Source of the DNA: Terriglobia bacterium
GTDB taxonomy: Bacteria; Acidobacteriota; Terriglobia; Acidiferrales; UBA7541
Assembly: GCA_020072785.1 (NCBI GenBank)
Contig: JAIQGG010000009.1
Coordinates: 1 to 64,000, forward strand
DNA length: 64,000 nucleotides
Reading direction: 5' to 3'
Shown piece by piece: positions 29,622 to 41,749 of the stretch (its first letter is position 1; each line of letters starts with the position of its first letter). The notes below the pieces were generated by a model. The model ran no database searches. It saw only the letters and a list, made by a program, of their open reading frames with translations, and had not been told where the DNA came from. Position numbers and translations under genes: made by a program.

Positions 29622-31769
29622 ATGGCTCGGAAGAACTTTGATGAGATCCTGAAAGAGTTTCTGGACGAGAGCTCGGAAGGACTGCAGCAGCTCGATACGC
29701 TGCTGGTGCGGTTGGAGAACGAGCGCGATTCCGCGCGTGTGGCCGACATCTTCCGTGTCATTCACAGTATCAAGGGCACATCGGGCCTTCTTGGATTGAA
29801 CAATCTGGAGATGCTGGCGCATGCCGGTGAAGACCTGCTCACGGACATTCGCGATGGGAATCTGATCCCCAACAAGGAAATCACGACAGCACTGCTGCAG
29901 ATGGTGGACCGCATCCGGGCGGCGATAGAGATCGTCGCACAGAAGAAGTCGGATGCTGAGTTTAATGCCGGCAGCCTGATTACCCGCCTGGGGTTGCTGA
30001 AACACTCCCAGGCGGATCAGGCGGGTTTGCCTCGGGCAGAGACTGTGAACCAAGCCGGCCCGGAAGCGCAGCAAGAAAGCGCCGCGGCGCCCGCACCCAG
30101 CGGTGTGGGCACGCAGCATCTTCGGGTTGACGTTTCCTTGCTCGACAAGCTGATGAACATGGTTGGTGAGTTGGTGCTCGTTCGCAACCAGATCCTGCAG
30201 CTAGGTCACTCCAATTCGGCGATTACCGCCTCCTCGCAAAAACTGCATCAGATCACCACCGAGCTGCAGGAAGGGATGATGAAGACCCGCATGCAGCCGG
30301 TGAGCAATCTGTGGGACCGGGTTCCACGCCTGGTACGCGATGTCTCGATCATCTGCAACAAGCAGGTCCGGGTGGAATTCGAAGGAGGTGAGACGGAGCT
30401 GGACAAGACGATCCTGGAATCGATCAAGGATCCGCTGACTCACTTGGTCCGCAACGCGATTGATCATGGCATTGAAGCACCGGAGGCGCGCCGGGCGAAA
30501 GGAAAGCCGGAAGAAGGCGCGATTATCCTGCGGGCCTACCATGACGGCGGGCAGGTGTGCATCGAGGTCAGCGACGACGGGCAAGGAATCGATACGGCCC
30601 GCATCGTCGCCGATGCGATCGAAAAAGGCTCCATCAGCGCGGACCAAGCAGCGCGCCTTTCCGAACGCGAGCAGAAAGCGCTGATGTTTCTGCCCGGGAT
30701 CAGCACTTCGATCGATGTCACCAAGGTTTCTGGCCGTGGCGTCGGCATGGACGTGGTTAAGACGAATACCGAGCGTATCGGCGGGACAGTGGACATCCTG
30801 GCCGCCCCGCACGGTGGAACCTGTTTCCGCCTGACGATTCCGCTGACGCTGGCGATCATTCCCGCGCTGGTGGTCGTGAGCCGCGGCGTCCGGTATGCGA
30901 TTCCCCAGGTCAATATTTTGGAACTCGTGCGCCTCGATGCCGATCAGGCAGCCGTTGAAATCGAACAAGCGCGTGGATGCAGCGTATACCGCCTCCGGGG
31001 GCGTTTGATTCCTATCCTCTACCTCCACGAAGTGCTTCGGCTGAAAGACAAGGATGCCAAACAGGAGCAGCCATCCGACGGCGTGAATCTTGTGATTCTA
31101 CAGGCTGGAATGCACTCGTTTGGCCTGGCCGTCGACGACATCAACGATACCGAAGAGATCGTGGTCAAACCGCTGGCCCGGCAACTCAAAGGACTCACCG
31201 TTTGTTCGGGTGCGACCATCATGGGCGATGGAGCGGTGGCCATGATTCTGGATGTAATCGGGCTCGCCCACCGCGCCGGAGTGGAAGTTCAGAACGAGGC
31301 GCAATCCCGAACGGCTTCCGAGGCGGCGCACGAGACGGAAATCGAGAGGCTGGTCATCTTCCGGGTGGGGAAGAACCGGCGGCTGGCAATGCCGCTAAAC
31401 CTGGTCGCCCGGCTGGAAGAATTCCCAAAGGACAAGCTGGAAAACTCCGCTGGGCAGCTCGTCGTGCAGTATCGCGGCGGGGTCATGCCGGTGGTTCCAC
31501 TGGCCAGCGTGCTGAATCTGGAAAGCGACAGCGAAGGCAGCGGTCTGGCCCAGGTGATCGTCTACGAAAAACAGGGGAAGAGCGTAGGGCTGATCGTTGA
31601 CGAGATCGTGGACATCGTCGAGGAGCGCCTCACCGTGCATGAAGCCGACTTCCACAAGAACATCCGGGGACGCGCGGTCATTCAGGGACGGGTGACCGAT
31701 CTACTGGAAATCCCGCACATCTCTGATCTGTGGTCCGGTGCGGCTCAGAGCATGCGAGGGGTGAACTGA
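29622..31769 (+). CDS. cheA: Chemotaxis-type histidine kinase CheA
   Basis: A 715-residue CheA. The P1 Hpt domain (1-108) has the phosphorylated His48 in FRVIHSIKGTSGLLG. No P2 domain is seen; a Pro/Ala-rich linker leads to the P3 dimerisation helices (about 165-230). The P4 ATPase has the N box DPLTHLVRNAIDHGIE and G boxes SDDGQGID and GRGVGMDVVK. Two CheW-like P5 domains follow (about 410-550 and 565-700), one more than in enteric CheA. CheA relays receptor state to CheY and CheB. It overlaps cheW by one base (TGATG). No flagellar genes are nearby. Confidence 0.93.
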   Translation: MARKNFDEILKEFLDESSEGLQQLDTLLVRLENERDSARVADIFRVIHSIKGTSGLLGLNNLEMLAHAGEDLLTDIRDGNLIPNKEITTALLQMVDRIRAAIEIVAQKKSDAEFNAGSLITRLGLLKHSQADQAGLPRAETVNQAGPEAQQESAAAPAPSGVGTQHLRVDVSLLDKLMNMVGELVLVRNQILQLGHSNSAITASSQKLHQITTELQEGMMKTRMQPVSNLWDRVPRLVRDVSIICNKQVRVEFEGGETELDKTILESIKDPLTHLVRNAIDHGIEAPEARRAKGKPEEGAIILRAYHDGGQVCIEVSDDGQGIDTARIVADAIEKGSISADQAARLSEREQKALMFLPGISTSIDVTKVSGRGVGMDVVKTNTERIGGTVDILAAPHGGTCFRLTIPLTLAIIPALVVVSRGVRYAIPQVNILELVRLDADQAAVEIEQARGCSVYRLRGRLIPILYLHEVLRLKDKDAKQEQPSDGVNLVILQAGMHSFGLAVDDINDTEEIVVKPLARQLKGLTVCSGATIMGDGAVAMILDVIGLAHRAGVEVQNEAQSRTASEAAHETEIERLVIFRVGKNRRLAMPLNLVARLEEFPKDKLENSAGQLVVQYRGGVMPVVPLASVLNLESDSEGSGLAQVIVYEKQGKSVGLIVDEIVDIVEERLTVHEADFHKNIRGRAVIQGRVTDLLEIPHISDLWSGAAQSMRGVN

Positions 31770-32248
31770 TGGCCATGCAGCAATTTTGCACGTTTCGGGT
31801 CGGTGGCGAATTGTTTGGGATCGAGGTCGAGCGCGTTCAGGAAGTGATCAATTACCAGGAGATGACGCCGATCCCATTTTCCTCGGCACTGCGCGGCCTG
31901 ATTAATCTTCGCGGCCAGATCATCGTGGCCATCGATCTGCGCACCCGGCTGCAGATGGAGGAACGGCCGGTGGATCAGCCGCCTATGAACGTGGTGTTGC
32001 GCAGCGATGACGGAGCCGTGAGCCTCCTTGTGGATGAGATCTGCGACGTGGTGAATGTGACGGAAAAGACGTTCGAAAGCGTTCCGGTCACGATGCGTTC
32101 GGCCTTCAAAGAAATCATCAGCGGCGTTCACAAGCTGGAAACGGACTTAATGCTGGTGCTCGATGCGCAGCACGCCATCGATGTCGGCGTCAAAATGCCA
32201 GCGGTGGATTCGGTTGCGCATACGGTGAATCAGGGTGAACCGAACTGA
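31769..32248 (+). CDS. cheW: Chemotaxis coupling protein CheW
   Basis: A 159-residue SH3-like coupling protein joining the receptor to CheA. It begins MAMQQFCTFRVGGELFGIEV and has the typical ALRGLINLRGQIIVAIDLR. The start at 31769 overlaps the cheA stop. The 200 bases that follow carry no convincing gene. Confidence 0.93.
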   Translation: MAMQQFCTFRVGGELFGIEVERVQEVINYQEMTPIPFSSALRGLINLRGQIIVAIDLRTRLQMEERPVDQPPMNVVLRSDDGAVSLLVDEICDVVNVTEKTFESVPVTMRSAFKEIISGVHKLETDLMLVLDAQHAIDVGVKMPAVDSVAHTVNQGEPN

Positions 32249-32447
32249 TTCAGAGAAAGAATGACCTCGGTGCAAGAAAAACGTTCGAGGCGGGTGAAGG
32301 TGTCGTGGAGCCACCAGATGTAAATGACGAATGCCCTCTCGCCAAGATGGATTTGAGCGGGGGCGAGCCAGGGGAGTTGGCGGACTGCGGTAAGAAGTGT
32401 TCGGCACAGTAGACGGGTCCTACGTTTAGGTGTTGGGAGGAAATGCT

Positions 32448-32834
32448 TTGTTGCGTCAACGCGCTCTGGTTGTGGATGACTCACAGGCAACCCGGTCGAT
32501 GCTAGCCACGATGCTGGATGATCTCGGGTTCGACGTGGAAGAAGCATGCGACGGGGCCGAAGCGATTGCCGTGCTTCGGAAAGGGATCACGTTTGATGTC
32601 CTCCTGGTGGATTGGAACATGCCCAACGTCGATGGCGTGGAGCTTGTCCATGCGGTGCGCAACGATCCCTTCTACAACAAGCAGGTTCGCCTGGTCATGG
32701 TGACCTCCGTGGACGAGCCGAACCTCATGGAAAAGGCGCTGACCACCGGCGCGAACGAATACCTCATGAAGCCATTCACAAAAGAGATGCTGGCCGACAA
32801 ATTGACATTGATTGGAATCGCAAGGAACAACTGA
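32448..32834 (+). CDS. cheY: CheY-like response regulator
   Basis: A 128-residue single receiver with all key residues: acidic pair LVVDDSQATR, phospho-Asp in LLVDWNMPNVDG, switch Ser/Thr in VMVTSVDEP and Lys in LMKPFTKEM. The WNMP context is typical of CheY. The TTG at 32448 is 7 bases after GGGAGG and is preferred. The stop overlaps cheB (TGATG). In the absence of a flagellum its target is unknown. Confidence 0.88.
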   Translation: MLRQRALVVDDSQATRSMLATMLDDLGFDVEEACDGAEAIAVLRKGITFDVLLVDWNMPNVDGVELVHAVRNDPFYNKQVRLVMVTSVDEPNLMEKALTTGANEYLMKPFTKEMLADKLTLIGIARNN

Positions 32835-33904
32835 TGGCCAATATTCGCATCCTCATCGTGGACGACTCCAGCCCGATCCGGAGTTCGATCTCCTCGTTGC
32901 TGGGAGAGGAGCCCGATCTGCAAGTTGTCGGGATCGCACGCAATGGGCGCATTGGTGTGGAGAAAGTCATGCAGGTCAGAGCGGACATCGTCCTTCTCGA
33001 CATCGAAATGCCCGAAATGGACGGCATGACCGCGCTTAAGATTATTCGTAAGGACCATCCAGATCTTCCAATCATCATGTTCAGCGCGCTGACGAAAAGA
33101 GGCGCTTCGCAAACACTGGAAGCGTTGGCGCTGGGCGCTGATGATTACGTGGCCAAGCCGTCGATGGAAAAAAATCTGGACCAGGCCCTGGAGAATTGCA
33201 AAAGGGAACTGGTTCCGAAGATTCGGGCACTCTGCGGACGGGCCACGCCGGACAAGAGGGCTACCGTGCGCGTGCCGGCGCCGAATCCAGGCAAGGTGTC
33301 GGGCCGGACGGACATAGTTGTGTTGACCGCTTCCACGGGGGGACCGAGCGCGCTTGAGGAACTCCTCCCGAGGTTTCCTGCGAATTGCCCAGTTCCCTTT
33401 GTGATCGTGCAATCCATGTTGCCGCTTTTGATCAAGAGCTTTGTCGAGCGTTTGCAGAGCCAATGCAGGATGAATGTAATGGAAACCGGGGACGCCCGGC
33501 CTCTGATTCCCGGAATCTACATCGCAACGGGCGGGAAGCATACGGTCGTGGAGCGCGTCGCAGATCAGATTCAAATTCGGGCGACGGAAGGCGCGTCAGA
33601 AAACTCCTTCCTTCCGTCGGCGGACGTCCTGTTGCGGTCGGTGACGGGCGTGTATGGCGGCAACTGCACGGTCGGGATATTGACGGGCATGGGGGATAAC
33701 GGCCTGAAAGGTTGCGAACATGTGTACGGCTGTGGCGGGGAGATTCTCGTGCAGGATCAGGAAAGTTCCAAGGTCTGGGGTATGCCAGCGGCAGTCCTGG
33801 AGGCGGGACTCGCGCACGGCGTATTTCCGTTGAATGCATTTTACGAACAGATTCACAGAAGGATTCAGGCGAGTAAATCCATCCCGGTAATGGCGACACC
33901 GTGA
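32834..33904 (+). CDS. CheB-like protein with degenerate methylesterase site
   Basis: A 356-residue protein with an intact receiver domain (LIVDDSSPIRSS, phospho-Asp in VLLDIEMPEMDG) and a CheB methylesterase domain (about 155-350). The nucleophile Ser is kept in TASTGGPSA (about residue 166). The motif that should be QHM, holding the catalytic His, reads QSM (VIVQSMLPLL, about 192). The motif that should be GMGxDG, holding the catalytic Asp, reads GMGDNG (about 286). Two of three catalytic residues are therefore changed. It is likely inactive as an esterase and may act as a phosphate sink or regulator. It lies between cheY and cheR with overlaps on both sides. Confidence 0.88.
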   Translation: MANIRILIVDDSSPIRSSISSLLGEEPDLQVVGIARNGRIGVEKVMQVRADIVLLDIEMPEMDGMTALKIIRKDHPDLPIIMFSALTKRGASQTLEALALGADDYVAKPSMEKNLDQALENCKRELVPKIRALCGRATPDKRATVRVPAPNPGKVSGRTDIVVLTASTGGPSALEELLPRFPANCPVPFVIVQSMLPLLIKSFVERLQSQCRMNVMETGDARPLIPGIYIATGGKHTVVERVADQIQIRATEGASENSFLPSADVLLRSVTGVYGGNCTVGILTGMGDNGLKGCEHVYGCGGEILVQDQESSKVWGMPAAVLEAGLAHGVFPLNAFYEQIHRRIQASKSIPVMATP

Positions 33905-34776
33905 GCGGAACTTTAGGCATGTCGGTCCGGCGAGAGGACTTCGACTACATACGCGCGCTCCTCAAGGGGCACTCGGGCGTATTTCTCGAAGATGGCAAGG
34001 AGTACCTCTTGGAGGTGAGATTGTCTCCTCTGTATGTAGACATGAAAGTGGACTCGATCGCCGAATTGGTGACGGTATTGCGGCGCGATGCAAACGCCGC
34101 GATGCGCGAACGTGTCCTCAATACGCTGCTGACCAACGAGACCTATTTCTTCCGCGACATCCATCCGTTCGAGGTGTTGCGCACCGATGCTCTGCCGAGA
34201 CTATTTGCCGCTCGCACCGGAAAGAAGCAACTCCGCATCTGGTCTGCCGCGTGTTCCACGGGGCAGGAGCCGTACAGCATCGCGATGATCGTTCATGAGC
34301 TCATGCAGGGTTGCCCGGGATATGCCGTCGAAATCATCGCTACCGATATCGCCGAGGAAAACCTGGAGCGTGCGAGGTCGGGCCAGTACACCCAGGCGGA
34401 AGTCAACCGGGGCCTGCCGGCGGCCATGCTGATCAAGCATTTCACGAAAAAGGACGCAATCTGGGAGATCAACGAATCCATCCGGCGCATGGTCACTTTT
34501 CGCAAGCTCAACTTGTTTGAGTCCTGGCATGGCGTCGGCGCAATGGACCTGGTTCTTCTTCGCAACGTCTTGATCTATTTCGACCAGGGCGCAAAGAAAG
34601 AGATCATCCGGCGCATCCGGCGGACCGTGGCGGACGATGGCGCCGTATTCCTCGGTGCGTCAGAGACCGTCTTGGGACTTTCGGATGAGTTCCACATCAT
34701 GCATTCGGGCAAGGCTTCCCTGTATCGTCCCAAAGCCGCCGAGATGGTTGCGGTTCCCGGAGAGGTGAAGCGATGA
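33901..34776 (+). CDS. cheR: Chemotaxis protein methyltransferase CheR
   Basis: A 291-residue SAM-dependent glutamate methyltransferase for receptors. An N-terminal all-alpha domain contains LNTLLTNETYFFRD. The SAM site is IWSAACSTGQEPYSIAM, followed by IIATDIAEENLERARSGQYT and LVLLRNVLIYFD, all diagnostic of CheR. The GTG start overlaps the upstream stop (GTGA); ATG 33919 is an alternative. A working CheR beside a likely dead CheB makes the second CheB at 39524 the probable counter-enzyme. Confidence 0.93.
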   Translation: MSGTLGMSVRREDFDYIRALLKGHSGVFLEDGKEYLLEVRLSPLYVDMKVDSIAELVTVLRRDANAAMRERVLNTLLTNETYFFRDIHPFEVLRTDALPRLFAARTGKKQLRIWSAACSTGQEPYSIAMIVHELMQGCPGYAVEIIATDIAEENLERARSGQYTQAEVNRGLPAAMLIKHFTKKDAIWEINESIRRMVTFRKLNLFESWHGVGAMDLVLLRNVLIYFDQGAKKEIIRRIRRTVADDGAVFLGASETVLGLSDEFHIMHSGKASLYRPKAAEMVAVPGEVKR

Positions 34777-34920
34777 GAATTCGGGTTGCCGGTCAAAACG
34801 GGAGTCTATCTGCAGTGGGGGTACGCAGGAATACGGGGGGAGATATGGAATTCAACATGAACCGCGGGATCGGTCCGGTCCAGCGAAATGCCTGTGCCGG
34901 CCGCGGCGGGAGGATCTGAG

Positions 34921-35283
34921 ATGTTGCATCTGGCTTCAACACTGGTTCTGTTGCTGGTGGCTGCGGGACTGTGGATACGCAAGCGCAATCCGCAGTGGCA
35001 TCAGCGGCTGATGATCGCCGCATTCGGCAGCGATCTTCTGCTGGTTCTGTATATCGAATTCACGCGTCACGCAGTCGAGAAGGTTGTGTCGCGCGTCCGG
35101 CCGCTGGTCTGGTTTCACGCCGGGGTGTCGCTGGCCGTGCTGGTCTGCTACGTCCTTATGATTCTCTTGGGGCGTCCGATGCTTGCGGGCAGGTACGAAA
35201 CACGCGCGCTGCATCGCGTGCTCGGAATCACCTTCGTCGTGCTCAGAAGCCTGAATTACGCGACCAGTTATATGGTGGTCTGA
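34921..35283 (+). CDS. Small four-helix membrane protein, DUF420-like
   Basis: A 120-residue protein with four predicted transmembrane helices: MLHLASTLVLLLVAAGLW, LMIAAFGSDLLLVLYIE, VWFHAGVSLAVLVCYVLMIL and RVLGITFVVLRSLNYATS. His residues at or near helix ends (LHLAS, WHQRL, WFHAGV, ALHRVL) recall DUF420/cytochrome-assembly-type proteins and could bind haem. GGGAGG lies 7 bases before the ATG. It stands between cheR and the truncated haemoglobin gene, which suggests it is part of the gas-sensing unit. Family assignment is tentative. Confidence 0.65.
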   Translation: MLHLASTLVLLLVAAGLWIRKRNPQWHQRLMIAAFGSDLLLVLYIEFTRHAVEKVVSRVRPLVWFHAGVSLAVLVCYVLMILLGRPMLAGRYETRALHRVLGITFVVLRSLNYATSYMVV

Positions 35284-35316
35284 AGCCGTTCTGTTCCGGA
35301 GCCGTTGGGAAATCGC

Positions 35317-35718
35317 ATGGGAAACCAGGAGACAGGCGTTCACCGGACCGATTCGCTCTACGCCCAGATGGGTGGAAGAACGCGCATTACCGCCGCGGCA
35401 GAAAGGTTCTACGAGAAAATTATGGCAGACGGCGATCTCAAGACTTTTTTCGCGGGGACCAACACAACGTGGATGAAGATGCGGTTGAGCCGGTATCTGA
35501 CGCAGGTCCTGGGCGGGCCGGCGCAATACAGGGGTCTCTCGATGAAGGCGGCGCATGCCCATCTGCACATCGAGCGGCGCCACTTCCAGCAAGCCGAAAA
35601 ACTCCTTGCGGCGGCCCTGGATGAGGTAGGCGTGCCGCCCAACGTGGTGGCAAGTGTGATGCAGAAGGTTATGGAGCTCGAACCGGATGTTGTCACGGAG
35701 GCACAATGTGCCCGCTGA
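35317..35718 (+). CDS. Truncated haemoglobin, group I type
   Basis: A 133-residue 2/2 globin. The SLYAQMGGRTRITAAAERFY start, LADGD-like turn (MADGDLKTFF), LGGPAQYRGLSM and the proximal His in MKAAHAHLHIERRHF follow the trHb-N pattern. Tyr B10 is kept (RFYEKIM). At the distal E11 position, where trHb-N usually has Gln, alignment by eye gives Leu, so ligand binding may differ from the paired receptor. It is paralogous to the globin domain of the next gene, and the two probably arose by duplication. Likely ligands are O2, NO or CO. Confidence 0.88.
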   Translation: MGNQETGVHRTDSLYAQMGGRTRITAAAERFYEKIMADGDLKTFFAGTNTTWMKMRLSRYLTQVLGGPAQYRGLSMKAAHAHLHIERRHFQQAEKLLAAALDEVGVPPNVVASVMQKVMELEPDVVTEAQCAR

Positions 35719-35899: not shown

Positions 35900-37894
35900 A
35901 TGGGAGTCAAATTGCCGTCCGTTCGCCGCTCCGATTCGCTCTACGCTCAACTGGGCGGAAAGGCGAGTATCGAAGCGGCCGTCGAAAAGTTCTACGAGAA
36001 GGTCCTGGCAGATCGCGAGCTCAAGCCGTTTTTCGCCAAGACCAATATGACCTGGCTCAAGCTGCGCCAGACGCAGTTCATGAGCCAGGCCCTTGGGGGG
36101 CCCGCGGATTACAAGGGCCGCTCGATGAAGTCGGCGCACGCGAAGCTGCTTATTGAGCCGCGGCACTTCGAGCGCGTGGGCACGCACCTTGCGGTGACGC
36201 TCACCGAACTGGGTGTGCCGCCCGAGCTGGTGGATACGGTGATGGAGAAAATCGGCGGTCTTGAGGGGGACATCGTGACTGTGCGCAAGAATGATTCCGG
36301 AGATACAGAGCAGGGCCTGACCATGGCCCAAGTACGTGCGATGCTGGAAAATTCGCCCATCAACATCATGCTGGCGGATTTGGACATGAACATCATTTAT
36401 GTGAATCCAGCGTCCGAAAAGCTGCTGGGAACTCTCGAAAAATTCCTGCCGGTGACTGCAGATAAAGTCGTGGGGTCGAGTATCGACATCTTCCACAAGA
36501 ATGCGGCGTACCAGCGCAAGATTTTGAGCAATCCGAGAAACCTGCCGCACCGGTCGAACATTCAGATCGGCGACCAGACCGCCGATTTGCTGGCCACGGC
36601 GATCTACGACGAGAAGAACAACTACATTGGCCCGATGGTCACGTGGTCATTGATCACCGACCGTTTGAAGACCGAGACGGAAATGTCGCGCGTCATGTCC
36701 ATGATGGAAAACGCGCCCATCAACATCATGTCCGCCGACCTGGATCTGAAGCTCCAGTACCTCAATCCAGCCGCCAAGAACCTGATGAGGAAGATCGAGC
36801 AGTATCTCCCCGTCCGGGCCGATCAAATGATCGGCACGGCCATCGACATCTTCCACAAGAATCCTGAGCAGCAGCGCAAGTTCCTGTCCAATGACCGGAA
36901 CCTGCCCTTCAGCGCTCAGATCGAGATCGGCCCTGAATCGTTCGATCTGAAAGTCAGCGCCATCTACGATCAGAACAAGAAATATCTGGGTCCCATGGTC
37001 ACCTGGGAACAAATCACCGAAAAGCTGGCCGCCGAGCGCACCATCAAAGAGGCCCAGGAGCGCGAGCGGAAGCAGGTGGAAGAGCTGAAAACAACCATGG
37101 CGACGGTGGCGCAGAACGCTTCCGGCCTGGCCACGGCGTCGGAGGAGCTCACCGCTGTCAGCCAGCAGATGAGCACAAACGCGGAAGAGACGGCATCGCA
37201 GGCCAACGTGGTCTCGGCGGCTTCCGAGCAGGTGAACCGCAGCCTCCAGACGGTGGCCACCGGCACGGAGGAGATGAGCTCCAGCATCAAGGAGATCGCC
37301 AAGAACGCGGCGGACGCGGCCAAGGTTGCCAGCGAAGCGGTGAAGGTTGCGCAGTCGACCAACACGACCGTTGCCAAGCTGGGTGAATCGAGCGCCGAAA
37401 TCAGCCAGGTAATCAAGCTCATTACTTCCATCGCGCAGCAGACCAACCTGCTGGCGCTTAACGCCACCATCGAAGCCGCCCGCGCGGGCGAAGCCGGCAA
37501 AGGCTTCGCGGTCGTCGCCAACGAAGTGAAGGAACTGGCGAAGGAAACCGCGAAGGCCACCGAGGACATCAGCCGGAAGATCGAGGCGATCCAGAGCGAT
37601 ACCAAGGGTGCCGTTGAAGCGATCGGTGCGATCGGCGCGATCATCACCCAGGTGAACGACTTCTCCAACACCATTGCGACGGCCGTCGAAGAACAGAACG
37701 CCACGACGACTGAGATGACCCGCAACGTGAACGAAGCGGCTAAGGGCGCAGGCGAGATCGCGAAGAATATCGCCGGCGTGGCCGAAGCCGCCAAGAGCAC
37801 GTCCCGCGGGGCGGGGGATTCACAAAAGGCGGCGCAATCTCTGGCAAGTATGTCTGCCGAGTTGCGCGGTCTCGTGGGCCGGTACAAGTTCTGA
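35900..37894 (+). CDS. Chemoreceptor: truncated haemoglobin + 2 PAS + MCP signalling domain
   Basis: A 664-residue soluble receptor without membrane helices. Residues about 1-130 are a group-I truncated haemoglobin ([20 protein letters not shown]; Tyr B10; Gln at E11 in KLRQTQFM; proximal His in [15 protein letters not shown]). Two near-identical PAS domains follow (about 140-255 and 260-380; [20 protein letters not shown] and [20 protein letters not shown]). The rest is an MCP coiled coil whose hairpin tip contains [20 protein letters not shown] and [19 protein letters not shown]. There is no C-terminal NWETF-like tether. Known globin-coupled receptors such as HemAT use a 3/3 sensor globin, so a 2/2 globin here is unusual. 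It is the only receptor in the island. Confidence 0.93.
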
Positions 37895-37987: not shown

Positions 37988-39520
37988 ATGCAGCGTAAAC
38001 TGAAGCGCGCTGCCGAGCTGGGAGGCCTTGCCCGCACGATGGCAAGCCTCCAGCGCGGCAGCAGCGCTTCGGCCAGACAATCCCAAACGTCGGTCGTGCA
38101 ACGGCTCGCACAGTTGCACGGATTGCCCCAAAAGATCGGGCAAATCCTTTCTCTCGGAGAACTGGGCGGGGAAGAGCGGCTTTTCAGCTCGCTCACGGAA
38201 ACCGCCCCGGCGCTCTCCTCCCGGGAGGCCTTCGAGGAAATCGAAAAAGCGCTCGGGCGCCCACTCGGCGAATGTTTTGCGCATATCGAGGCGCAAGGCG
38301 TGGGCGCTTCGCTTGCACAAGTACACAAAGCGATTTTGCCTGACGGCCGCGCGGTGGCCGTCAAAATCCAATACCCCGGCATAGCCGACGCGCTGGACTT
38401 GGACCTGCGGGCGTTAGGCTGGCTCACGGCCCCCGTGGGCGGCCTGAACCGTGGCTTTGACCTGAGCGGTTATCGTCGCGAGATCGGTTCGATGTTTCGC
38501 GAGGAGCTGAACTACCGGCACGAAGCCGAGATGCTGGGTTCTTTCCGCGAGGTGGCGCGCCGCTCTCCGCGGGTGGAAATTCCCGAAGTGGTCGAGGAGT
38601 TCAGCAATGAACGCGTGCTGACGATGGCTTGGCTCGATGGCGAGCCTTTTGCTTCTACGCACGCTTGGCCCCTGGCAGCGCGAACGGAGGCGGCTTCGGT
38701 TCTTCTCCGCTTCTTTCTAGCGAGCTGCTTTTCCTGGGGACTTCTCCACGCCGATCCGCACGCCGGCAACTATCGCTTCCGATTAATTCAAGGTCGACCG
38801 GTGATCGGCTTGCTCGATTTTGGCTGCGTGAAGGCCCTGGACGCACGGGCCACCGGTGCGCTCTCCGCGCTCATCGAAGACACCGCCACCGGCGTATTCG
38901 ATCCGATCCGCGCGCGTTCTCACTTTGAAGCGATGGGGTTCCAGGCGCTCCTTCTGGCGCCCATGCAGCATCTGCTTCCCGGTCTGAGCGAGATTCTGTT
39001 CGAACCGTTCTCCAGGGAGCAGCCTTTTGATCTGAATGCCTGGCGGCTGGGCGAGCGGGTGGAAGCACATCTCGGCGAATTCCGGTGGAATTTCCGAATG
39101 GCCGGGCCGCCGCAGTTAATTTTCTTCATGCGTGCCTATCAGGGGCTCATCCAGTATCTGAAGGCTCTGGACGCACCGGTGAACTGGCAAGAGGAGTATC
39201 GCCGGCTGGCCGCTCCAGCGTTACTGCCGGAGCCGGGAGCGAAGGCTGCGGCTCAATCTGCATGGCCTGTCCGAGCGAAATCGAGCTCCTTGAAGATTCG
39301 AGTAGCGCAAAGCGGCCGCACGAAGGCCGAAGTCACCTTTCTCGCCACCGTAGCGGAGAACCTGCCCGAGCTGATGCCTCTGGGCCTGGAAGAGAAGCTC
39401 GCAAACCACGGCATTGATGTGGCTCAAATCGCGCAGAAAGCCGTCGCCGGAGGATTTGCGCCCGGTGATCTGTTCCATTTTGAAGAAGGGGCGAAGAGCT
39501 ACCGTGTCTGGCTCGAATAA
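37988..39520 (+). CDS. ABC1/UbiB-family atypical kinase
   Basis: A 510-residue ADCK/UbiB-type kinase-like protein. It has the N-terminal KxGQ motif (LPQKIGQILSLGE, about residue 48), a Gly/Ala nucleotide loop (QGVGASLAQVHKA), the lysine VAVKIQYPG, catalytic HADPHAGN (about 256) and DFG in LLDFGCVK. About 80 C-terminal residues after 425 are outside the usual family and unrecognised. No membrane anchor is seen. UbiB proteins support quinone synthesis, but here the gene lies 3 bases before cheB in a chemosensory island, so a signalling or haem/quinone-linked role is inferred. Confidence 0.87.
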   Translation: MQRKLKRAAELGGLARTMASLQRGSSASARQSQTSVVQRLAQLHGLPQKIGQILSLGELGGEERLFSSLTETAPALSSREAFEEIEKALGRPLGECFAHIEAQGVGASLAQVHKAILPDGRAVAVKIQYPGIADALDLDLRALGWLTAPVGGLNRGFDLSGYRREIGSMFREELNYRHEAEMLGSFREVARRSPRVEIPEVVEEFSNERVLTMAWLDGEPFASTHAWPLAARTEAASVLLRFFLASCFSWGLLHADPHAGNYRFRLIQGRPVIGLLDFGCVKALDARATGALSALIEDTATGVFDPIRARSHFEAMGFQALLLAPMQHLLPGLSEILFEPFSREQPFDLNAWRLGERVEAHLGEFRWNFRMAGPPQLIFFMRAYQGLIQYLKALDAPVNWQEEYRRLAAPALLPEPGAKAAAQSAWPVRAKSSSLKIRVAQSGRTKAEVTFLATVAENLPELMPLGLEEKLANHGIDVAQIAQKAVAGGFAPGDLFHFEEGAKSYRVWLE

Positions 39521-39523
39521 CGC

Positions 39524-40645
39524 ATGCCATCCATTCGCGTTCTCATCGTTGATGATTCCGTCGTCGTCCGCAAGGTAGTTTCTGAAGCCATCTCCAGCGA
39601 TCCCGCGATCCAAGTTGCCGGGACCGCTGCGGACGGCAAGATCGCTCTCGCGAAGATTCCGCTCCTCAACCCCGATATCATCACGCTCGATGTGGAGATG
39701 CCCGGCATAAACGGCATCGAAACGCTGAAAGAGATCCGAAGACTGTATCCGAAGCTCCCCGTCATCATGTTCAGCACGATGACCGAGCGCGGGGCTGCAA
39801 TCACACTCGATGCGCTGTCTCTGGGGGCTTCCGATTATGTGACCAAGCCCAGCAAGAGCGGCGATCCCGATGTGGCCGCGGAACGCGTCCGCACCGAGAT
39901 GGTTCCCAAGATCAAGGCGCTCTGTGCGCAGCGGCCCATCGAGCCGCCGTCTGCTCTGTTGGCGGCTCCCGCCACCGACGTGGCAGTTCCGCAATTGATC
40001 ATTCCTGCCGTGCCCAGGCAGGCTTCGTCGCGCATCGACATCCTCGCCATCGGAGCTTCCACCGGCGGCCCCAATGCGTTGGCCAAGATGTTGCCTCTGT
40101 TTCCCGCGAATTTTCCGATCCCCATCGTCATTGTGCAACACATGCCGCCGCTCTTCACGCGGCTGCTTTCCGACCGGCTCAACGATCAAACGAAGATCAC
40201 CATTCGCGAAGGGGTGCCGGGCAGCATTTTGGAACCCGGGCACGTCTGGATTGCCCCCGGGGATTTTCACATGGCCGTCGAGCGCTTTGGCGCAAATGTG
40301 CGGCTGGCGATGAACCAGAGATCGCACGAGAATTCCTGCCGTCCCTCGGTCGATGTGCTATTCCGTTCGGTGGCAAAAGTCTACGGCAGCAACGTCCTGG
40401 CCCTGGTTCTAACGGGTATGGGGGCGGACGGCGTGCGTGGTTCGCAACACATCCGCGAACAGGGCGGCCTGGTCTACGTTCAGGATGAGGCCAGCTCGGT
40501 GGTTTGGGGCATGCCAGGGCTGGTGGCGCAAGCCGGCCTCGCAGACGACATCATTCCCCTCGACATCATGGCCTATGAGATCGTGCGCCGCGTCAAAAAC
40601 AGCCGCTCGTTACCCGGGCGCAAGGTGGCAGGAATTGCCCAGTAG
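39524..40645 (+). CDS. cheB: Protein-glutamate methylesterase CheB
   Basis: A 373-residue CheB. The receiver domain (LIVDDSVVVRKV, phospho-Asp in ITLDVEMPGING) is joined by an Ala/Pro linker to a complete esterase domain with all three catalytic residues: Ser in GASTGGPNA, His in VQHMPPLFTR and Asp in TGMGADGVRG. It removes methyl groups added by CheR. It resembles the degenerate copy at 32834 and is the functional partner by inference. Confidence 0.93.
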   Translation: MPSIRVLIVDDSVVVRKVVSEAISSDPAIQVAGTAADGKIALAKIPLLNPDIITLDVEMPGINGIETLKEIRRLYPKLPVIMFSTMTERGAAITLDALSLGASDYVTKPSKSGDPDVAAERVRTEMVPKIKALCAQRPIEPPSALLAAPATDVAVPQLIIPAVPRQASSRIDILAIGASTGGPNALAKMLPLFPANFPIPIVIVQHMPPLFTRLLSDRLNDQTKITIREGVPGSILEPGHVWIAPGDFHMAVERFGANVRLAMNQRSHENSCRPSVDVLFRSVAKVYGSNVLALVLTGMGADGVRGSQHIREQGGLVYVQDEASSVVWGMPGLVAQAGLADDIIPLDIMAYEIVRRVKNSRSLPGRKVAGIAQ

Positions 40646-40897: not shown

Positions 40898-41707
40898 TCA
40901 AGGATGAGTATCTGAAGCGCTTTGCTGCAGAGATAGCTCACTTCTGATGTGACCCCACAGCTTTATTCTCGCCTCAATCGAGGTCACAGCCGCCCGTTCG
41001 GCTTCCTGCCACTTAACCGTCGCATCTTCACATAACGAGGCGAGCATCTTCCTCGCCAGTGGCGCGTGATGATCCCCGTCGACTTCAATGTGTCTCTCGA
41101 GATACTGACGGAAGAAGTGGTACTCATCGGAGTAGAAAAGATTCAGCCGTTTCATGATCTGGGAAAACATCTGCGGGATAATGTCTTCACGGCCAAATAA
41201 GAAGGAGGCGGCAACCTCATGGGGTTTCCCGCGAGCCAGATCGAATGTGGTCCGAACAAAGTTAAGGGCCCCGTTTTCCGCGGAAAGACCTTTCAATGCG
41301 GCATCAAAAGCAGTTGCTCCTCGAACTTGGTCAATGAAATTCAGCACCGGTTTCGTGTCGGCGCCAATTTCCTCCATGGCACGCAAATAGAGCTCAAAAT
41401 GACTCAGGTACAGGCCTTCCCCAACTTCGTCAGATTCTTCACACAATACGATTTCATTAATAAATCGAGCAAGCTGTGGGTCCTTTGCTGGCAGCCAGGG
41501 TACGTCTATACAGGTCAGTTGTCGTTGCAGGGTTTTCAGCAGGGACATGAAATCCAAGACAGCAAAAACATGGGATTTCATGAAAGTCTGGATGGTCTGC
41601 AAATCCTTCAACTCTTCGTAAATGGGATGTGCTAAGAGGGCTTCTCGCTGCTTCGAGATCCGCGCTTCAAATGCCTCGAGATGTCCATTGCTGGAGAGTG
41701 TCTTCAT
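40898..41707 (-). CDS. DUF3050 protein (haem-oxygenase-like fold)
   Basis: A 269-residue all-alpha protein. The start region EARISKQREALLAHPIYEEL and HVFAVLDFMSLLKTLQRQLT fit DUF3050. Carboxylate/His segments EESDEVGEGLYLSHFELYL and HIEVDGDHHAPLARKML look like the ligands of haem-oxygenase-like di-iron proteins. Activity unknown. The ATG at 41707 is chosen; the longer frame adds 14 unlikely residues. It is the only intact minus-strand gene in the island. Confidence 0.75.
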   Translation of the reverse strand: MKTLSSNGHLEAFEARISKQREALLAHPIYEELKDLQTIQTFMKSHVFAVLDFMSLLKTLQRQLTCIDVPWLPAKDPQLARFINEIVLCEESDEVGEGLYLSHFELYLRAMEEIGADTKPVLNFIDQVRGATAFDAALKGLSAENGALNFVRTTFDLARGKPHEVAASFLFGREDIIPQMFSQIMKRLNLFYSDEYHFFRQYLERHIEVDGDHHAPLARKMLASLCEDATVKWQEAERAAVTSIEARIKLWGHIRSELSLQQSASDTHP

Positions 41708-41749
41708 CTGTTCTATGCCTCGGCAACCAGCCTGCATGCGTAAAGCCAC

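Follow-up and report, generated by a model that had tools for sequence, protein, structure and literature searches.

Textbook globin-coupled chemoreceptors have, to our knowledge, 3/3 globins only, and 2/2 haemoglobins are usually treated as stand-alone gas binders. A chemoreceptor gene in a soil bacterium of the Terriglobia raises the question of whether a 2/2 haemoglobin can head such a receptor, and what that receptor would sense. The window, by which we mean the whole stretch of 64,000 nucleotides that was analysed, lies on contig 9 of a 3.73-Mb genome that is 98.9% complete, and its closest named relatives are Terriglobia (Acidobacteriota) MAGs. The receptor and its domains, which include a truncated haemoglobin (trHb), are located as follows.

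35900..37894, + strand: soluble chemoreceptor of 664 amino acids with a trHb-PAS-PAS-MCP layout, ATG start (Pfam; kept in L026/L067 and L027/L145)
35936..36274, + strand: group-I trHb domain with Tyr32 (B10), Leu53 (E7), Gln57 (E11) and His80 (F8, proximal) (Pfam, alignment, model)
36338..36667, + strand: PAS1 (amino acids 147-256), Aer2 type, with His199 and Trp249 (PDB profile match, alignment)
36698..37027, + strand: PAS2 (amino acids 267-376), Aer2 type, with His319 and Trp369 at equivalent positions (PDB match, alignment)
37301..37789, + strand: MCP signalling domain (amino acids 468-630) (Pfam)

In Pfam, the receptor matches Bac_globin (PF01152) at amino acids 13-125 (E 1.6e-20; 74 bits against a cut-off of 21), PAS over amino acids 144-185 and 267-373, and MCPsignal at amino acids 468-630 (E 1e-31), which supports the fusion of a globin to two PAS domains and an MCP domain that a preliminary description had read from the sequence. 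Hydropathy predicted no membrane helix (maximum KD19 1.08), and no stretch reaches membrane-helix hydrophobicity, which indicates that the receptor is soluble, as that description had also proposed. The arrangement recurs in two other genomes at 86-88% globin identity, which indicates that it is neither chance nor an assembly error; an assembly chimera was rejected because the identical arrangement is seen in three genomes. Locus L026 is apparently the same contig as that of G009, a genome from the same GTDB genus as the window.

The globin is unambiguously a group-I trHb. Its nearest solved relatives are all group-I trHbs, the best being HbN of M. tuberculosis (118 residues aligned without gaps, E 2.9e-24), and a profile built from eleven receptor globins matched HbN in the PDB at E 2e-36. 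The residues that mark group I, Tyr B10, Gln at E7 or E11 and His F8, were found as Tyr32, Gln57 and His80, in agreement with the proximal His, Tyr B10 and Gln E11 of the preliminary description. All 11 aligned receptor globins share Tyr B10, Gln E11 and His F8 without exception, and Leu E7 is nearly invariant, whereas overall identity between lineages is ~50%. Like HbN, the receptor globin has a distal Tyr B10, Leu E7 and Gln E11, a proximal His and the same fold (Z ~22). HbN is, however, a single-domain protein, whereas here the trHb forms the head of a chemoreceptor.

The preliminary description had set this head apart from the 3/3 sensor globins, and two of the checks that it named, a profile comparison and a structure prediction, both favour its assignment. 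Protoglobin (PF11563) gave no match to the receptor globin in Pfam at E<=0.01, and a PDB search with the eleven-globin profile, extended to E=10, returned no chain of a globin-coupled sensor. The outcome that the description had named as refuting it, a better score for a sensor-globin profile, thus did not arise. The AlphaFold2 model of the globin (pLDDT 86.7) has group-I trHbs (HbN, Tetrahymena, Paramecium) as its best structural matches (TM 0.82-0.85, Z ~22), which indicates the 2-over-2 fold, and no sensor globin is among the structural matches listed. A hidden 3/3 sensor globin was accordingly rejected by Pfam and by the PDB profile, and the structural matches listed agree. The receptor resembles HemAT, in which a 3/3 sensor globin is joined to an MCP, in carrying an N-terminal globin on a soluble MCP and in its presumed signalling from gas to CheA. 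In contrast to HemAT, its globin lacks a sensor-globin profile match and is a group-I 2/2 trHb of another lineage, and predicted haem-PAS domains intervene.

The PAS region has as its only convincing PDB relatives Aer2 of P. aeruginosa (3vol, 4hi4) and of V. cholerae (6ceq), with E values of 2e-16 to 6e-23. The His of the motif IDIFHKN (His199) aligns with Aer2 His234, a position that was assigned by counting along 4hi4, and the Trp of MVTW (Trp249) aligns with Aer2 Trp283, which stabilises bound O2. With His319 and Trp369 in the second domain, the ligand His and distal Trp of Aer2 are thus present in both. In Aer2, PAS domains bind haem via the ligand His234 and sense O2, and some receptors have two or three haem-PAS domains (reviewed in PMC13401364). 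All three PAS domains of V. vulnificus Aer2 bind haem (PMC13401364), which provides a precedent for several haems in one receptor. The receptor is like Aer2 of P. aeruginosa, V. cholerae and V. vulnificus in its tandem PAS domains with ligand His and Trp that feed an MCP, but unlike Aer2 it adds an N-terminal trHb. Pfam matches at E<=0.01 include no HAMP domain, which Aer2 has around its PAS domains, and the receptor scored 297 bits against a cut-off of 1200 for the Aer2 equivalog NF041847. The AlphaFold2 model of PAS1-PAS2 was poor (pLDDT 50), so the haem pockets of these domains are read from sequence only. We consider it likely that both PAS domains bind haem. Their Aer2 type was missed in the preliminary description, and the globin is probably not the sole haem sensor in the protein.

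The same architecture is present in three Terriglobia genomes (G000, the window's own, together with G009 and G451), and within the window's GTDB genus it was found in 2 of the 36 genomes sampled, the window's own included. Seven of 149 Vicinamibacteria carry it (G381, G423, G721, G765, G775, G780 and G788); the class of G381 within Acidobacteriota we take to be Vicinamibacteria, from the general look of the genomes. It also occurs in one of 236 Opitutae sampled (G453, Verrucomicrobiota) and in at least three Planctomycetota (G1320, G1407 and G1195), as well as in G1370; G1407 runs into the contig end ahead of its MCP domain, the frame of G1370 is broken, and G1195 carries a GAF domain and a decayed globin. 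These occurrences show that the architecture is conserved across Acidobacteriota, Verrucomicrobiota (Opitutae) and Planctomycetota. Long open frames with trHb in Pseudomonadota and elsewhere (L127-L133, L136) were rejected as fusions, being read-through upstream of the gene, and L066 is read-through as well. A planctomycete locus, L174:4412-6709, encodes a trHb-GAF-PAS-MCP protein whose globin seemingly has no proximal His and whose PAS has no Trp, which makes it a naturally occurring candidate for a receptor that has abandoned haem. In another setting, one acidobacterial genome (G424) holds two copies (L064, L065) of a protein in which ankyrin-like repeats follow a trHb-like domain.

Every family member with retrieved flanks lies inside a che cluster. 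In the window its other genes, listed in their order, are the following, with the receptor falling between the stand-alone trHb and the ABC1 gene.

29622..31769, + strand: CheA (Hpt, dimerisation, ATPase and two CheW-like stretches) (Pfam)
31730..32248, + strand: CheW (Pfam)
32430..32834, + strand: CheY-like single receiver (read from the translation)
32837..33904, + strand: first CheB (likely start; the listed ORF opens at 32612)
33901..34776, + strand: CheR (Pfam)
34888..35283, + strand: small DUF420-like membrane protein (29.0 bits, just under the cut-off of 30.5)
35305..35718, + strand: stand-alone group-I trHb (Pfam; 54% identical to the receptor globin)
37988..39520, + strand: ABC1/UbiB-family atypical kinase with KxGQ, HADPHxGN and DFG motifs (93 bases downstream of the receptor)
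39524..40645, + strand: second CheB (Pfam)

The stand-alone trHb keeps the proximal His, and its Gln E11 is replaced by Leu here and by Phe in G009; the gene is missing in G451. In the tree it is nested with the Terriglobia receptor globins (support 0.989), which together with the 54% identity suggests that duplication of the receptor's globin head is its most likely origin. The DUF420-like protein, which contains several histidines and sits between the CheR and trHb genes, has a homologue beside the receptor in the Vicinamibacteria genome G788, and it could act in the membrane as a haem or redox partner. On the opposite strand, directly past the cluster, a DUF3050 protein (40901-41749, - strand) gave a weak haem-oxygenase-like match.

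Overall, we think it rather probable that the protein is a cytoplasmic diatomic-gas receptor with three haems that acts on its own CheA. The trHb domain very likely binds haem, and the receptor as a whole probably holds three haems, in domains of two different folds. In the mechanism that we propose, the trHb would hold haem b via His80, with O2 (or NO) held by Tyr32 and Gln57 as in HbN, and PAS1 and PAS2 would each bind haem b via His199 and His319, with Trp249 and Trp369 in contact with the bound gas, as happens in Aer2. Signals from ligand binding in the three domains would pass through coiled linkers to the MCP hairpin and from there to the activity of the neighbouring CheA, while CheR and CheB would adapt the receptor. 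Three haems of two folds might widen the O2 range, or globin and PAS might read different gases, and the stand-alone trHb, as a duplicate with an altered pocket, may scavenge or buffer gas near the receptor. We favour O2, with moderate confidence, as the main physiological ligand.

The main rival to this mechanism is a globin directed at NO, and we regard it as a tentative possibility. HbN-type pockets are good NO dioxygenases, and the receptor has the HbN pocket of Tyr B10, Leu E7 and Gln E11 and is adjoined by a trHb duplicate. The trHb could thus be an NO sensor that reports NO to CheA, or an NO dioxygenase that removes NO and leaves the PAS haems to read O2 without interference, with the stand-alone trHb acting likewise. 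However, no reductase was recognised among the scanned cluster genes, and in several phyla the globin is part of the same polypeptide as an MCP, which suits sensing better than catalysis.

A second alternative to the three-haem receptor is that only the globin senses gas and that the PAS domains, without haem, relay the signal, mediate dimerisation or bind flavin. Relay functions are common among PAS domains, and in G453 and G780 the first PAS is not of the Aer2 type and is an ordinary S-box PAS, which indicates that two haem-PAS domains are not universal in the family. In contrast, all 27 of the distinct related PAS domains gathered here retain the haem-ligand His and 26 of them retain the Trp, and the single domain without Trp is that of L174, whose globin also has no recognisable proximal His. 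Since haem-PAS domains are moreover the only convincing PDB relatives of this region, we consider the globin-only alternative unlikely. It is very improbable that domain shuffling left the globin as an inert or degenerate remnant in a receptor that reads redox or another cytoplasmic cue via PAS, since the pocket residues are invariant in all eleven receptor globins despite their divergence, even if the globin has decayed in at least one relative (L174).

The receptor has a published counterpart in Corallococcus coralloides. For Cc_4972, Sharma, Parales and Singer (2018) reported a combination of PAS, Bac_globin and MCPsignal domains and proposed oxygen sensing by this putative aerotaxis receptor (PMC6194562), and a 2026 aerotaxis review cites and repeats the description. 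The architecture is therefore already known by prediction, and the distinct sensor class proposed in the preliminary description is not supported as new. On rarity, for which that description had wanted a database search, the 2018 article calls the Bac_globin-PAS-MCP combination rare, with seven cases in 8,075 complete genomes (PMC6194562). In the groups sampled here, the architecture recurs in Terriglobia, Vicinamibacteria, Opitutae and Planctomycetota. Our literature search found no experimental test of any Bac_globin-PAS-MCP receptor.

By description, the receptor is of the same kind as Cc_4972 (PMC6194562), with PF01152, PAS and MCPsignal in one soluble protein, and its CheA-CheW-CheB-CheR cluster with ABC1 corresponds to the gene set of cluster Cc-5 (CheA, CheW, MCP, ABC1, CheB, CheR), for which an oxygen-sensing role was likewise proposed. 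The two differ in that the receptor here has two PAS domains, both with the Aer2 haem signature, a point not found in the consulted sections of that article; in that the cluster here includes a DUF420 protein, a stand-alone trHb and a second CheB; and in that no ABM gene is among the genes scanned here. To the published description our analysis adds that the globin belongs to group I, as its pocket residues and fold show, that both PAS domains bear the Aer2 haem signature, that the architecture is more widely distributed, that a subfamily of ABC1 recurs, that the trHb is duplicated and that the output is likely non-flagellar. We conclude that 2/2 haemoglobins head chemoreceptors in several phyla, alongside PAS domains predicted as haem sensors, and that this family allows a direct test of how two haem folds split the work, be it by range, gas choice or protection.

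An ABC1 gene lies within the che cluster in all three Terriglobia, in G788 and in G453; it is absent from the retrieved stretch in G381, G775 and G780, and the contig ends too early in G423, G721 and G765. The genomes with a cluster ABC1 have only one to three ABC1 genes each, and by a rough estimate from gene numbers one would fall within 10 kb by chance with a probability of 0.4 to 1.1% per lineage. The cluster ABC1s share 37-42% identity across phyla against 21-25% with full-length non-cluster copies, so they look like a subfamily. In the 2018 article, ABC1 was found in the C. coralloides che cluster and in no other (PMC6194562). Its recurrence here in three further lineages contradicts the published view that a single myxobacterium acquired it locally, and suggests a functional connection, perhaps to quinone or respiratory state.

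We also considered the output of the pathway. FliG is absent from G000 and G009, both about 99% complete, and PilT is present in both, which suggests a non-flagellar output. G451 and the relatives tested outside the genus have FliG, and PilT is present in all, which suggests that the output may differ within the group. With FliG alone as the flagellar marker, which is weak evidence, the output is likely non-flagellar in the window's species and is probably type IV pili or another non-flagellar process. Our confidence is evenly divided on the full proposal, in which a tri-haem receptor (2/2 globin plus two Aer2-type PAS domains), a dedicated ABC1-family kinase and a spare trHb would form a gas-sensing module conserved in several phyla and non-flagellar in this species.

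A separate case was observed in the class of the Rhodospirillaceae MAG G452, where 7 of 190 sampled genomes encode CheA kinases with a trHb between the Hpt and dimerisation domains. The loci are as follows.

L165:2-2620
L167:4353-7952
L168:6896-9895
L169:2116-5154
L170:598-3600
L171:979-4089
L028:4639-6009

The Pfam architecture was confirmed for four of them. In the tree their globins fall outside the receptor clade, which suggests a separate entry of trHb into the Che pathway. A literature search found no paper on trHb-inserted CheA, which is possibly more novel than the receptor. In L165 and L167, a second trHb splits the CheW-like domain.
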